Positions 8,921 through 15,070 of a stretch of DNA of 47,571 nucleotides are shown one piece after another. Location: assembly GCA_013538855.1 (NCBI GenBank), contig JABXJS010000057.1, positions 1 through 47,571 on the forward strand, read 5' to 3'. The stretch's first letter is position 1. Every line of letters begins with the position of its first letter. Below the pieces are notes generated by a model, which was not told the DNA's origin, made no database searches, and worked only from the letters and a program-made list of their open reading frames with translations. The translations under genes and the position numbers were made by a program. The stretch comes from Herpetosiphonaceae bacterium. Lineage in GTDB: Bacteria > Chloroflexota > Chloroflexia > Chloroflexales > Herpetosiphonaceae.

Positions 8921-8991
8921 GATGGCCACGCCGCTGATTTTGTGCTATCATACTTGGAAGTTTCCCCGCACGGGGCCAGATCAGCGATTTA

Positions 8992-9019
8992 AGCACAAGC
9001 GATTGCCGCTTGTGCTTTT
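8992..9019 (+). terminator. Intrinsic terminator between the kinase-like gene and the deaminase-CYTH gene
   Basis: A perfect 10-bp stem (AGCACAAGCG at 8992-9001, complement at 9007-9016) with a 5-nt loop is followed by a short T run and GTT. It lies 72 nt after the kinase-like gene stop and only about 20 nt before the next start codon, so it may act as a leaky terminator or attenuator for the downstream gene. Confidence 0.65.
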
Positions 9020-9040
9020 GTTCAACCTTTAGGAGGTGCA

Positions 9041-11032
9041 ATGAAACCGGAACAAGTTGATACGTTGCTCCTTGGCGGGACAGTGGTGACAATGGATGCG
9101 GCTGGCACGATCATCGATAACGGTGGTGTTGCCATCCGCGATGGCGCGATTGTGGCAGTTGGTCCTGCACCAGAGCTGCAAGCGCAGTTCAAGGCCGAGC
9201 AGGTGATCGATTGCACCGATCAGGCGATTGTGCCCGGCTTGATCAATGGTCACGCCCATGTGCCCATGAGCCTGCTGCGCGGGATTGTCGCCGATCAGCA
9301 GCTCGATGTGTGGCTGTTTGGCTATATGTTTCCGGTCGAGAGCCGCTTCGTCGATCCTGAGTTTGTCTACCACGGCACGCGCCTCTCTTGCGCCGAGATG
9401 ATCAAGGGCGGCATCACCACGTTTGTGGATATGTACTTCTATGAGGAAGAGGTCGCTCGTGCCGCCGATGAGGCCGGCATTCGTGCCATCTGCGGCCAGA
9501 CCGTGATGAAGCTGCCTACGCCCGATGCACCATCCTACGATGCAGGCCTGGAGCGCTCGCGGCGCTTTATCGAGCAGTGGCATACCCACAAGCGGGTTAT
9601 TCCAGCCATCGCGCCGCACGCCCCCTACACCTGCAACAGCGAGATCTATCGCTCGGCTGCAGCGCTGGCCCGCGAGTACGATGTGCCGCTGGTTACCCAC
9701 CTGAGCGAGACGGCCCGCGAGGTCACCGAGGCCCGCGAGCTGGTCGAGAATACGCCCATTGGCTATGTGGCCGCTCTCGATGGCTTCTCTGATCGTGGCA
9801 TTGCCGCCCACTGTGTGCATATCGACGCCAACGACATGCGCTTGCTCAAGAAGCATAATGTTGGCGCTGTGCCGTGCCCGACCAGCAATCTGAAACTGGC
9901 CAGCGGCGTGGCCAAGTACGGCGAGATGCTCAAGGCCGGCATCAATGTTGGCCTTGGCACCGATGGCCCCGCCTCCAACGACGATCAGGACCTTTGGATG
10001 GAGGTGCATCTGGCCGCGATCTTGCCCAAGGGCGTCACTGGCGATCCCACCGTGGTGAACGCACGCCAGGCCTTTACGATGGCCACCTCGATGGGCGCGA
10101 AGGCCGTGCATCTTGATCACCTCGTCGGCAGCCTTGAGGTCGGCAAGCGCGCCGATGTCGTTGTTGTCGATCTGCGCGGTCTGCACGTCTCGCCCGCCCG
10201 CGAGTACACCTACAATCCCGATGCGATCTACAACCACCTCGTCTATGCGGCCCACTCCAGCGATGTGCGTCATGTGCTTGTCGATGGACGCTTGCTGCTG
10301 CATGACCGCGGGCTGCAAACGCTCGATGAGGATGCGGTGCGCACTAATGCGCGCGCTATCGCGAGCCGCATCAATCAGTTCCTCAGCGAGCGCGAGACCA
10401 ATGTGCTCGATAAAATTTTGGCCATCGGTGGCGTCAAGCAGGACGAGATCTTTGAGGTGCAGGTCAAAGCCCACGTGAGCGATATCGCTGCTGTTGAGCA
10501 GATGCTGGCTGGCCCCGAGATTACCATCACCAAGTCCAGCGAGCGCACACAGTATGACACCTACTTTATGTTCGACAATCCGCAGCGCGGTCGCATTCGC
10601 TATCGCGAGGATATTCGTCACGATCCCGGCTCGCGCCTGGAGCCAAAGTATACGCTGACGCTGACTCTCGAGCCTGAGCGCGGCGAGTATCCCAATGCGA
10701 TCCTGCTCTCGCGCTCGCGCTACACCGCCCGCGCCGATCGCTCGCGCCGCTTCTACCGCGAGTACTTCTCGCCCGATCACGTGATCGAAACCCGTAAGGA
10801 GCGCCGCCGCTGGCGCATTCTGTACAGCGGCGAGGACTTTGCGGTCAATATCGACACCATCGCCGAAGGTCCGGCCGCAGGCACGTACTTGGAGATCAAA
10901 AGCCGCACGTGGTCCCAGCGCGATGCCAATAAAAAGGTTCAGTTGATCAGCGAGCTGCTCCGCCTCAGCGGTGTCAACTCCGATCAGCTGGTCAAGGAAG
11001 AGTACATCGATCTTTCACGCTCGGCAGGTTAA
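9041..11032 (+). CDS. MtaD-type amidohydrolase/deaminase fused to a CYTH domain
   Basis: This is a 663-residue two-domain protein. Residues 1 to about 455 form a metal-dependent amidohydrolase of the 5'-methylthioadenosine/S-adenosylhomocysteine deaminase type. It has NGHAHVP (His71, His73), VTHLSET, HCVHID and GLGTDGPASND, which supply the metal ligands and catalytic residues. Residues from about 467 resemble the CYTH/triphosphate tunnel fold. An E-x-Q-x-K strand (Glu472, Gln474, Lys476) stands where the ExExK signature is expected. It is followed by alternating basic strands (RIRYRED, RSRYTAR, RKERRRW), FAVNID and YLEIKSR. The second Glu of ExExK is Gln, so catalysis by the CYTH part is uncertain. 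The deaminase part alone is full length for the family. An AGGAGG ribosome binding site lies upstream. I know of no described function for this combination. Confidence 0.85.
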   Translation: MKPEQVDTLLLGGTVVTMDAAGTIIDNGGVAIRDGAIVAVGPAPELQAQFKAEQVIDCTDQAIVPGLINGHAHVPMSLLRGIVADQQLDVWLFGYMFPVESRFVDPEFVYHGTRLSCAEMIKGGITTFVDMYFYEEEVARAADEAGIRAICGQTVMKLPTPDAPSYDAGLERSRRFIEQWHTHKRVIPAIAPHAPYTCNSEIYRSAAALAREYDVPLVTHLSETAREVTEARELVENTPIGYVAALDGFSDRGIAAHCVHIDANDMRLLKKHNVGAVPCPTSNLKLASGVAKYGEMLKAGINVGLGTDGPASNDDQDLWMEVHLAAILPKGVTGDPTVVNARQAFTMATSMGAKAVHLDHLVGSLEVGKRADVVVVDLRGLHVSPAREYTYNPDAIYNHLVYAAHSSDVRHVLVDGRLLLHDRGLQTLDEDAVRTNARAIASRINQFLSERETNVLDKILAIGGVKQDEIFEVQVKAHVSDIAAVEQMLAGPEITITKSSERTQYDTYFMFDNPQRGRIRYREDIRHDPGSRLEPKYTLTLTLEPERGEYPNAILLSRSRYTARADRSRRFYREYFSPDHVIETRKERRRWRILYSGEDFAVNIDTIAEGPAAGTYLEIKSRTWSQRDANKKVQLISELLRLSGVNSDQLVKEEYIDLSRSAG

Positions 11033-11635: not shown

Positions 11636-14600
11636 ATGCCCCACGAATCGAACGGCCATGTCTTGATCGTTGATGACGATGCAAGCATTAAGCGTATGTT
11701 TCAGCTGTTGCTGAAAGACGCAGGGTATCGGGTCTCAACCGCAGGCTCTAGTGTCGAGGCGTTGCAGTTCCTCAAAATCCTAACTCCAGATGTCATTTTG
11801 CTCGATATCTCTATGCCCGGCATCACCGGCGTTGAGCTGACACGGCGCATTAAAAGTGATCCACAGTATCCCTTCATCCCCATTATTCTGATCACCGCCC
11901 TTGGCGACATGAAGACCAAAATCGCTGGCCTCGACGCTGGGGCCGATGATTATCTCGTCAAGCCCGTCGAGTTCGCCGAGCTGCTAGCGCGCCTGCGGGT
12001 GATGATTCGGCTTCAGCAGAGCCGCCGCTCGCTCTATGAGAGCAATCGCCAAGTCGAGACGCTGCTCAAGGTGACGCAGGTGCTGACCTCCTCGCTCGAT
12101 GTCGATACGCTGCTGCAGCGCATGGCGCAGGAGCTGGCCGACTCGCTTGGGGCCGTGCGTGGCTCGATCATCTTGGCCAATGGCGATCAGCCGTTTTATG
12201 CCTCGGCCGCCCAGCATGTGCCCTCGGCCGCCGCGATCTCCAGCACGCTGCGCGACGGTGTGGCTGGCTGGGTGATGCGCTCGCGTCGCTCACTGCTCCT
12301 GGCGGATGCCCGCCGCGATAGCCGCTGGAACACGCTCGGCCGCGAGCAAGATACAACGCGCTCTGTGCTCGCTGTGCCGATCCTCAATGAGCACGATGTG
12401 CTCGGCGTGATTACGCTTGTGCACTCGTCGGTTGGCTACTTCCAAGATTATCACCGTGAGTTGGTCGAGTCCGTGGCCGCGCAAAGCGCGCTGGCGCTGC
12501 GTCACGCCCGCCTGTTTGTGCTTACAACGCAGCAAAAGGAGCAGCTTGAGCTGCGCTCGCATCTGCTGGAAGAGATCCTCAATGTCAGCGAGCGGCTGCG
12601 CTTGAATCTTCCGCTGCCAGCGATGCTCGATGAGATCGCCGAGGCGATTCATCGCTCGCTCGGCTTCGATGCGGTCGTGATTCATATCTATCGCCATAGC
12701 GGCACGGAGGCTGCGCAAGGCTATGCCGGTGTTGCAGCGGCTCCTCTGGCCGATTTTTTTACGCGCAGCTCGCTGGAGAACGATCTCCTGCCGCTGTTCC
12801 GCACGCGCTTTCGCCTGAGTCGCTCGTATTTTATTCCGCATACCTACGATTCTGCGCAGCTCGACGCGCCAGATGTTGATCTTGACTTTGATCTGGTTTC
12901 CACACGCGAGTGGCAGTCCAACGATCGCTTGATTGTGCCGATCGGCCCTGCAACGCATCCGCTCGGTGTGATTGCGGTCAGCGATCCGCTCGATCAGCGC
13001 GTGCCGGATCAGGCCACGGCCCAGGCGCTGGAGATCTTCGCCGATCAAGTGTCGAACGCCGTCAAAAATAAGCAGATCTTCGGTGCCGAGCGTGAGCGGG
13101 CCAATCAGCTCCAGCTGCTGGTTGAGGTTGGGCGTAATTTGACTGAGCTAATGACGCCCGATCAACTGCTGCGCTTGGTGACATCGCTCATTCAGCACAC
13201 GTTTGCTTTTTGGTCGGTGGCGGTCTTGCTCTATGATGAGCGTAAGCTAACGCTGCGCGCCGCTGCACATACCGGACTGGCGCTGCCGCCGCTGGGAATG
13301 CAGCTGTCTGTGCAAGGTGCGCTGGCCCGTATCGTCGAGCATCAGCAGTCCATCTACCACACAAACAGCGCCGACTTATGCCTCAACTATACGTGGATCG
13401 ACGAGCCGGTGCGCTCAGAGCTAGCGGTGCCGATCTTGGCGCGCAATCAGGTGCTGGGGGTGTTGATTGTAGGCAGCAACCACGATCAGGCCTTCGATGC
13501 CGTGACTGAGTCGCTGTTGAGCACGCTGGCGGCCCAGCTTGCGGTGGCCATGGAGAACGCGCGCTTGTTTGGTCAGGAGCAAAAGCAGGTTCAGCAGCTT
13601 ATTCAGGTCAATGCGCTCTCGATGAAGCTGACTGCGCTGTCGATCAACGAGCGCCTGCAGGGCGTGATCAGCGATGTAGCCCAGATTTTTGCTGTGTCCC
13701 AGGCCGTGCTGCTGCTGCTTGATCTGCAAGAACACCATGCATGGCTCGTTGACTCAGCGGACTCACATATCAGCGTCGATGATCTGCCGTCGTTTGCTGC
13801 GCTGGCCGACTATGTGGCGCAGATCGAGCTGCAGTTCGTGCAGGCGGCTGCTGATGGCTCTGTGCTGACCACTATTCTTGCGCGCGCGCAGCTTGAGCGG
13901 GCGCTGCTGGTGCCGCTGTCAACCAGCGAGCGCGTGACAGGTGTGCTCCTGCTCGCGGATGTTGGCCGTGACCAGCGCTGGACGAGCAGCGAGCGTAATC
14001 TCGCCCAGACTGTGGCCAACCTGCTAACGCAGACGATTGAAAATAGCCTGCTGTACACAACGGTCGCTGCCGAGCAGCGCACCTTGTCGGCGGTGTTGGC
14101 GAGCGCCGCCGATCCGATCATCGTCGTCGGATCGCAGTCGGAGCTGCTGCTGTTTAACCGCGCTGCCCGTGAGAGCTTGAATCTTGATGCGCACGACATC
14201 AGGCAGCCGGTGCGCCATCCGCTCTTGCTGTCGATGATCGCAGCCGACGCCGCCGCGCTCCACGAGTACACGCTTGATGATGGGCGGATCGTCCAGCCAA
14301 GCATTGCGCGCCTTGTTGATAGCGAGAATAGCGCTGATGCCGGTAAGGTGCTGCTGCTTCAGGACATCACGGCGATCAAACTGCTTGAGCAGCAGCGGAT
14401 GCAGCGCCTGCACGATGATATGTCGCGCTATATGGCTCCACAGCTTGTGGAGCAGCTGCTGAACGAGGGCAGCTTTGGCGCGATTACCGAGCGCGATGTG
14501 GTGGTGCTGTTTGCCGATCTCCGTGGCTTTACGGCCCTCAGCGAGGGCCTTAGCCCGCGCATTGTCGTTGAGCAGGTGCTCAACCGCTTTTTCACCGAGA

Positions 14601-15070
14601 TGACCAACGTGCTTTATGAGTACGAGGCGACCATTGACAAGTTCCTTGGTGATGGCATTATGGCCGTGTTTGGCTCGGTGCGCCAGCGCTCCGATGATGT
14701 TGATCGCGCGATTGCCACAGCCGTGGCGATGCAGCGTGCATTTCGTGTGCTGCACGACGAATGGCAGGCTCAGCTCGGCCGCTCGATCGGCCTAGGGATT
14801 GGCATGAGCTTTGGGCGCGCCGTGGTTGGCAATCTCGGGTCGCCGCAGCGGCTAGACTACACACTGATTGGCGATGTTGTGAACACGGCTAGTCGGCTGG
14901 TTGATCTCGCTGAGAGTGGCCAGATCATTGTCTCGCAGACGCTGGTGGATCAGCTTGTGGCGATTGATCGCACGAGCTTGACCCCGCTTGCCCCTGTGGC
15001 GCTGAAGGGCAAAGTTCAACCACTAGCGATCTATAGCGTCGAGTACACCACTGCTTCTGCAGAGGCTTAA
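11636..15070 (+). CDS. Receiver-GAF(x4)-PAS-class III adenylate cyclase
   Basis: This is an 1144-residue signalling protein. An N-terminal receiver domain (about 8-125) has acidic DDD at 13-15, phospho-acceptor Asp57 and a later Lys in YLVKP. Three to four GAF-like modules follow (about 150-295, 315-480, 495-640, 655-810) and a PAS-like segment about 820-910. A class III nucleotide cyclase domain occupies about 945-1135. It shows the metal-binding aspartates in FADLRGFT and KFLGDGIM, and the VNTASR motif. The purine-selecting pair appears to be Lys (KFLGD) and Thr (LDYTLIGD), which fits an adenylate rather than guanylate cyclase. No transmembrane segment is visible, so it is cytosolic. A partner histidine kinase is not encoded nearby. 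GGAG precedes the ATG. Confidence 0.88.
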   Translation: MPHESNGHVLIVDDDASIKRMFQLLLKDAGYRVSTAGSSVEALQFLKILTPDVILLDISMPGITGVELTRRIKSDPQYPFIPIILITALGDMKTKIAGLDAGADDYLVKPVEFAELLARLRVMIRLQQSRRSLYESNRQVETLLKVTQVLTSSLDVDTLLQRMAQELADSLGAVRGSIILANGDQPFYASAAQHVPSAAAISSTLRDGVAGWVMRSRRSLLLADARRDSRWNTLGREQDTTRSVLAVPILNEHDVLGVITLVHSSVGYFQDYHRELVESVAAQSALALRHARLFVLTTQQKEQLELRSHLLEEILNVSERLRLNLPLPAMLDEIAEAIHRSLGFDAVVIHIYRHSGTEAAQGYAGVAAAPLADFFTRSSLENDLLPLFRTRFRLSRSYFIPHTYDSAQLDAPDVDLDFDLVSTREWQSNDRLIVPIGPATHPLGVIAVSDPLDQRVPDQATAQALEIFADQVSNAVKNKQIFGAERERANQLQLLVEVGRNLTELMTPDQLLRLVTSLIQHTFAFWSVAVLLYDERKLTLRAAAHTGLALPPLGMQLSVQGALARIVEHQQSIYHTNSADLCLNYTWIDEPVRSELAVPILARNQVLGVLIVGSNHDQAFDAVTESLLSTLAAQLAVAMENARLFGQEQKQVQQLIQVNALSMKLTALSINERLQGVISDVAQIFAVSQAVLLLLDLQEHHAWLVDSADSHISVDDLPSFAALADYVAQIELQFVQAAADGSVLTTILARAQLERALLVPLSTSERVTGVLLLADVGRDQRWTSSERNLAQTVANLLTQTIENSLLYTTVAAEQRTLSAVLASAADPIIVVGSQSELLLFNRAARESLNLDAHDIRQPVRHPLLLSMIAADAAALHEYTLDDGRIVQPSIARLVDSENSADAGKVLLLQDITAIKLLEQQRMQRLHDDMSRYMAPQLVEQLLNEGSFGAITERDVVVLFADLRGFTALSEGLSPRIVVEQVLNRFFTEMTNVLYEYEATIDKFLGDGIMAVFGSVRQRSDDVDRAIATAVAMQRAFRVLHDEWQAQLGRSIGLGIGMSFGRAVVGNLGSPQRLDYTLIGDVVNTASRLVDLAESGQIIVSQTLVDQLVAIDRTSLTPLAPVALKGKVQPLAIYSVEYTTASAEA

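Follow-up and report, generated by a model that had tools for sequence, protein, structure and literature searches.

The window, a stretch of 47,571 nucleotides from a Herpetosiphonaceae bacterium, encodes a protein in which an amidohydrolase is followed by a CYTH (triphosphate tunnel) domain. This fusion of a deaminase and a CYTH tunnel, both known kinds of protein in a new form, is real and conserved. We consider it slightly more probable than otherwise that the protein deaminates 5'-substituted adenosines and carries a strongly basic C-terminal tunnel whose ligand resembles a triphosphate (an NTP, PPPi or polyphosphate) and is bound rather than hydrolysed. A literature search, partial in coverage, returned no description of an amidohydrolase-CYTH fusion. 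The gene and its parts are as follows.

9031..9036, + strand: Shine-Dalgarno sequence AGGAGG
9041..11032, + strand: amidohydrolase-CYTH fusion gene, 663 amino acids, from ATG at 9041 to TAA ending at 11032
9041..10378, + strand: amidohydrolase domain, residues 1-446
10379..10435, + strand: helical linker, residues 447-465, in which R451, E452, K458 and A461 are conserved
10436..11020, + strand: CYTH / triphosphate tunnel domain, residues 466-660, with eight strands and a plug helix

Inspection of the open reading frame and its translation shows one unbroken polypeptide with no internal interruption. A frameshift or an assembly join as the origin of the fusion was ruled out: homologous proteins are fused too, and the few short frames among them are contig ends. 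The initial annotation had placed a deaminase and a CYTH domain in one frame, and this is borne out by the single open reading frame, Pfam matches, AlphaFold2 models and fused homologs. It had also allotted about 455 residues to the amidohydrolase, which is indeed present; we place the end of this domain at residue 446.

Deaminase domain and predicted fold of the tunnel

The Pfam domain Amidohydro_1 matches residues 63-418 with an E-value of 3e-70. Conservation of individual residues was counted over 73 distinct homologs. The metal-binding and catalytic set (H71, H73, H193, H220, E223, H257 and D308) is invariant, each residue being present in 73/73 sequences, and so are W91 and E100, which we take to be candidates for the ribose/adenine pocket, given the roles of their counterparts in TM0936. 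The N-terminal domain is 36-38% identical to MTA/adenosine deaminases of COG0402, represented by model NF006549 and by Chromobacterium violaceum 4f0r and Pseudomonas aeruginosa 4gbd, which are among the nearest solved deaminase structures; the latter has methylthio-coformycin bound. The fold match covers the full N-terminal domain, and all metal and catalytic residues as well as W91 and E100 are shared, but the solved members do not have the C-terminal CYTH domain. The best 50 matches in a fold search with the full-length protein are all amidohydrolases. In a scan with NCBIfam-type equivalog models the protein reaches no curated cut-off, scoring 443.8 bits against NF006549 (cut-off 540) and 254.9 bits against the MTA/SAH model NF012037 (cut-off 779). 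Judged by its complete set of active-site residues, the N-terminal domain is a predicted MTA/adenosine-type deaminase, and the earlier proposal that it deaminates adenine nucleosides is supported in this form by the residue set and by the likeness to 4f0r and 4gbd.

MTA, 5'-deoxyadenosine and adenosine remain the candidate substrates. The fusion is the sole gene of its deaminase type in its genome, which also encodes MTA phosphorylase, purine nucleoside phosphorylase, a classical adenosine deaminase and two MtnA homologs. The classical adenosine deaminase is present in 18/21 genomes, which rules out the fusion as the only adenosine deaminase. SAH is unlikely to be the main substrate because AhcY of the same genome carries the SAH-preference motif HxTxE; with this enzyme present, and AhcY likewise found in most fusion-bearing genomes, the fusion is also unlikely to be the sole route for SAH.

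For the C-terminal part, the Pfam domain CYTH (PF01928) matches residues 472-646 with an E-value of 1.9e-4 in a scan of the whole protein. The domain scanned alone gives an E-value of 1.3e-4 and 22.3 bits, just below the 23.2-bit Pfam cut-off, which many relatives exceed; 15/20 homologous C-terminal domains match CYTH, the best with an E-value of 2e-8. A profile search of the PDB using the CYTH alignment gave noise only, and therefore a comparison of folds was needed. AlphaFold2, supplied with 40 homologs, modeled the whole protein with a mean pLDDT of 89.1 and a pTM of 0.81; the CYTH part alone reached 89.3 and 0.84. The predicted model has eight tunnel strands, one of them split in two, together with inserted helices and a plug helix at the C-terminus. 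Alignment with VIA-align gave Z 17.2 and rmsd 2.7 over 170 residues for 2een, and Z 16.6 and rmsd 2.4 over 167 residues for SaTTM (7ns9); the CYTH part scored about 15.7 against CyaB, 14.1 against YgiF, 13-14 against ThTPase and about 9-10 against VTC. As modeled, the C-terminal domain is a genuine eight-stranded TTM/CYTH tunnel. The initial annotation had suggested this structural check and named a model lacking the tunnel as the outcome that would speak against it; the tunnel is there.

Inheritance and genomic neighborhood of the fusion

The same architecture was found in 58/60 relatives and in 97/400 sampled Chloroflexota genomes, and not as two separate adjacent genes, the alternative that had been raised earlier. 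Among the titled records, the fusion spans Chloroflexales and Anaerolineae. Save for a few contig ends, all matches to this CYTH subfamily lie in frames of at least about 650 amino acids, and it was never found unfused otherwise. Deaminase homologs scoring above 430 bits to the protein of the window are fused, with one more cut by a contig end, while the next deaminases (33-40% identity) are unfused and mostly about 440-510 amino acids long. Distances in the deaminase and CYTH trees correlate with r 0.90, and 27/28 strong deaminase splits are recovered with zero strong conflicts. Because the two domain trees agree, the fusion appears to be single and old, as expected from one ancestral event after which both domains were inherited together. 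A pattern-based scan detected no occurrence outside Chloroflexota other than in what look like misnamed bins titled as other phyla: L029 ("Singulisphaera") shares 95% identity with proteins of Roseiflexaceae, L049 ("cyanobacterium") is placed within the Anaerolineae clade, and L044 ("Gracilibacteria") is partial. A search of plasmids found no copy of the fusion.

The genes neighboring the fusion in the window include those for an agmatinase, a BadF-type ATPase and a glutaredoxin; these were ruled out as functional partners since the neighborhood is not conserved. The next gene on the + strand (11636-15070) encodes 1144 amino acids; from its translation it reads as a receiver followed by GAF/PAS-like parts and, at the C-terminus, a nucleotide cyclase of class III, and it has no evident link to the fusion. 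A dephospho-CoA kinase gene (coaE) lies directly downstream of the fusion on the same strand in L004, L005, L008, L010 and 36 other Chloroflexales loci, often overlapping the fusion gene or within about 130 bases of it; at that downstream place no coaE was seen in Herpetosiphonaceae or Anaerolineae loci. In three Anaerolineae loci (L050 6296-7363, L166 119-1177 and L167 3718-4731) a membrane-like protein is encoded just downstream of the fusion, and an NCBIfam scan of two of these three proteins gave no match.

Six Herpetosiphon genomes (G002, G004-G008) have a second MtnA-like isomerase, scoring below the TIGR00512 cut-off, whose gene is divergently oriented and lies some 2 kb upstream of that for the fusion (for example L002 3113-4207, -). 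The same kind of MtnA paralog adjoins a pair of short MTAP-like frames in genome G001. Such adjoining frames, of 227 and 248 amino acids, are found at L163 151-831 and 810-1553 (-), and similar pairs occur in Herpetosiphon and G001. The arrangement of the MtnA paralog hints at what could be a separate salvage route for 5'-deoxy-pentoses.

The fusion gene is preceded in Herpetosiphonaceae by a leader with the following elements.

8946..8951, + strand: extended -10 promoter-like hexamer TATCAT, a consensus match only, its position conserved in the Herpetosiphonaceae alignment
8964..8975, + strand: hairpin P1 (CCCC-GCAC-GGGG), the outer C-G pair of which is U-A in Herpetosiphon
8993..9021, + strand: hairpin P2 (GCACAAGC/GCUUGUGC) and then UUUUGU

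The order of extended -10, P1, P2 with its U-run, and ribosome-binding site is conserved in Herpetosiphonaceae. The change of C-G to U-A is the one compensatory pair in P1, and the genome has no second copy of the P2 pattern. A covariance model of the leader has a strong match solely at the fusion gene, once per genome in eight genomes, and an Rfam scan of the leader matched no family. P2 with the U-run may be an attenuator, although the support for it from structure is slender.

Charged residues of the tunnel

CYTH triphosphatases bind two metals. In AtTTM3 an acidic patch of four glutamates (Glu-2, -4, -90 and -171) binds the catalytic second metal, which in YgiF is held by Glu-4, -6 and -162; the first metal is bound by an invariant glutamate (Glu-169 in AtTTM3, Glu-160 in YgiF) (PMC4641920). 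The matching residues of SaTTM are E5, E7, E135 and E137, and the motifs DxY and xRxR and the signatures HF and W/YxRxR are described for the family as well (PMC8233210). The corresponding features of the fusion protein, each found in 73/73 homologs, are listed below.

10454..10468, + strand: ExQxK (E472, Q474, K476), with the second Glu of ExExK, the CYTH motif, changed to Gln
10718..10720, + strand: R560, where AtTTM3 has Glu-90
10892..10900, + strand: E618-I-K620, with the site-1 metal Glu retained and Lys replacing the site-2 metal Glu
11003..11005, + strand: Y655 of the plug helix, at the position of SaTTM Y168, which is Lys in Vtc4

In AtTTM3 numbering, Q474 stands for Glu-4, R560 for Glu-90 and K620 for Glu-171, while E472 (Glu-2) and E618 (Glu-169) are retained; these equivalences are sequence-based rather than coordinate-based, being drawn from the ExExK/FxExE patterns, hhalign and YgiF alignments and plug-helix Tyr655, and the hhalign probability is only 43%, with the mapping of R560 the least certain. 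The triphosphatase motif ExExK is therefore missing, as is the strand-8 ExE that binds metals 1 and 2, and both are intact in 9/9 CYTH proteins of the ordinary kind from the same order; the genome of the window has such an ordinary protein on contig C54. The strand-4 tunnel lysine (SaTTM K69) is T, M or I in 67/73 homologs. The substrate motifs are present, xRxR as R520/R522 (73/73) and DxY as D506 (73/73) and Y508 (70/73), and the invariant tunnel residues are E472, K476, D506, R520, R522, K586, R588, D605 and E618. With the inward side assigned by strand alternation, 20/27 near-invariant strand positions face inward, which is above expectation (hypergeometric p 0.013); by the same assignment the difference in entropy between inward and outward positions over all strands is weak (p 0.06).

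Several known activities of the family can be set aside. The signature of class IV adenylyl cyclases (CyaB) is HF four residues before ExExK, a small residue at the first Arg and Ala at the second Glu of ExE; the fusion protein has K466-Q467, keeps R520 and has K620, and on these motifs the activity was rejected. Thiamine triphosphatase was rejected as well, with the aromatic residue of W/YxRxR replaced by R518 in 71/73 homologs. The catalytic plug-helix lysine of VTC polymerase (Vtc4 K458; AtTTM3 K200) is absent, Y655 occupying its place as mapped by sequence, and because of this no polymerase activity is predicted. The motifs listed by the initial annotation (E472-x-Q474-x-K476, RxRxR at 518-522, NID at 603-605 and LEIK at 617-620) are all present, while two possibilities it had mentioned, ThTP as a ligand and production of cAMP, are disfavored by these same residues. 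It read the Gln as the mark of a sensor rather than an enzyme and overlooked R560 and K620 as further acidic-patch substitutions. The part of this reading that stands is that the domain is not an ordinary triphosphatase; the sensor itself, still a hypothesis, gains in plausibility from the two additional substitutions.

The closest known domains are the SaTTM-like and CyaB-like CYTH proteins (PF01928; clusters 3 and 10 of PMC8233210), which share the eight-stranded tunnel (Z about 16-17), DxY, xRxR, KxR, the plug-helix Tyr and an aromatic residue at 616. In contrast to them, the fusion protein has ExQxK for ExExK, ExK for ExE, Arg for the third patch Glu and Thr/Met/Ile for the strand-4 Lys, at about 13-18% identity. 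The tunnel of the polyphosphate polymerase Vtc4 likewise retains the site-1 Glu, has lost the acidic patch and is basic; its basic patch residues guide the polyphosphate chain away, and the replaced positions of the fusion are similarly neutral or basic. However, its Z is only about 9-10, and the fusion keeps the first patch Glu (E472), has Tyr at the catalytic plug-helix Lys and lacks an SPX or membrane part. Across the ten major CYTH clusters, the fusion partners reported are CHAD and a domain of the phosphoribulokinase type (PMC8233210). YgiF and other CYTH-CHAD triphosphatases are two-domain CYTH proteins too, but with a CHAD partner and intact metal sites. Plant TTM1/2 (7z67) resemble the fusion in joining CYTH to a nucleotide-metabolism domain, here a kinase, and in having degraded ExExK and ExE, but their partner is of the phosphoribulokinase type, the aromatic W/YxRxR is kept, and they occur in plants and amoebae only.

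Possible roles of the tunnel

In the mechanism that we propose, the zinc-type deaminase would act on 5'-substituted adenosines (MTA, 5'-deoxyadenosine and possibly adenosine), and the tunnel's basic half would hold a phosphate chain together with the metal at site 1. The catalytic site-2 metal would not be bound, because its ligands are replaced by K620, R560 and Q474, and with no such metal the ligand would be sensed or used as a tether without being cleaved. Occupancy of the tunnel could then alter the activity or the location of the deaminase, so that salvage of purine nucleosides would be coupled to the phosphate or energy state of the cell. The synthesis and use of SAM yield PPPi, MTA and 5'-deoxyadenosine, which is one possible link to the tunnel ligand. 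We favor, with about even confidence, a putative mechanism in which the ligand is bound and two-metal hydrolysis does not take place, since a pure scaffold would not need invariant Arg and Lys residues in the tunnel. A more specific proposal is tentative: that the tunnel, catalytically dead and with its charge reversed, is a lineage-specific allosteric receptor for ATP, PPPi or polyphosphate with direct control over the attached deaminase.

It is unlikely, if not negligibly so, that the tunnel is still enzymatic and the protein bifunctional, with altered chemistry as a pyrophosphatase or a one-metal phosphohydrolase or phosphotransferase. AtTTM1/2 lack ExExK and ExE, yet they are reported to be pyrophosphatases (PMC8233210), therefore loss of the motifs is no proof against catalysis. 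One-metal chemistry could be supported by the retained E472 and E618, the catalytic-type R520 as well as K586, R588 and D605 are likewise invariant, and Vtc4 functions using site 1 only (PMC4641920). However, mutations of the corresponding glutamates impair catalysis in AtTTM3 and YgiF (PMC4641920), and the fusion lacks not only the Vtc4 plug-helix Lys and the SaTTM K69 equivalent but also the W/YxRxR and HF signatures.

Rather less probable is a structural or protein-interaction module with no small-molecule ligand, as Med18/20, which have the same fold, appear to be. Chains of Med18 and Med20 were found in the fold search with Z 10-12, and three residues of the acidic patch are gone, but the inward charged residues, including the triphosphate-contacting Arg/Lys and DxY, are invariant down to about 45% identity. 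Least probable of all is a tunnel that positions the substrate by holding the 5' tri- or polyphosphate end of the adenosine being deaminated (ATP/dATP or an RNA 5' end): SaTTM binds ATP in its tunnel (7nsd), the fusion is invariant and its helical linker conserved, but the active site resembles those of MTA/adenosine deaminases. Deaminases of this group do accept 5'-substituted adenosines, which counts in its favor; to our knowledge, no deaminase holds the 5' phosphates of its substrate by a CYTH tunnel.

CYTH domains are mostly treated as enzymes, and here, throughout much of a phylum, a subfamily exists only joined to a deaminase. A catalytic metal site that was turned into Q/R/K and then fixed would be a strong example in nature of a non-hydrolytic receptor of triphosphate or polyphosphate, and it raises the question of whether purine deamination is switched when the tunnel holds a nucleotide or polyphosphate. 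If the tunnel does sense such a ligand and control the deaminase, this would represent a new coupling of phosphate status to the salvage of SAM by-products, and the annotation of such proteins as adenylate cyclases or triphosphatases would call for caution.
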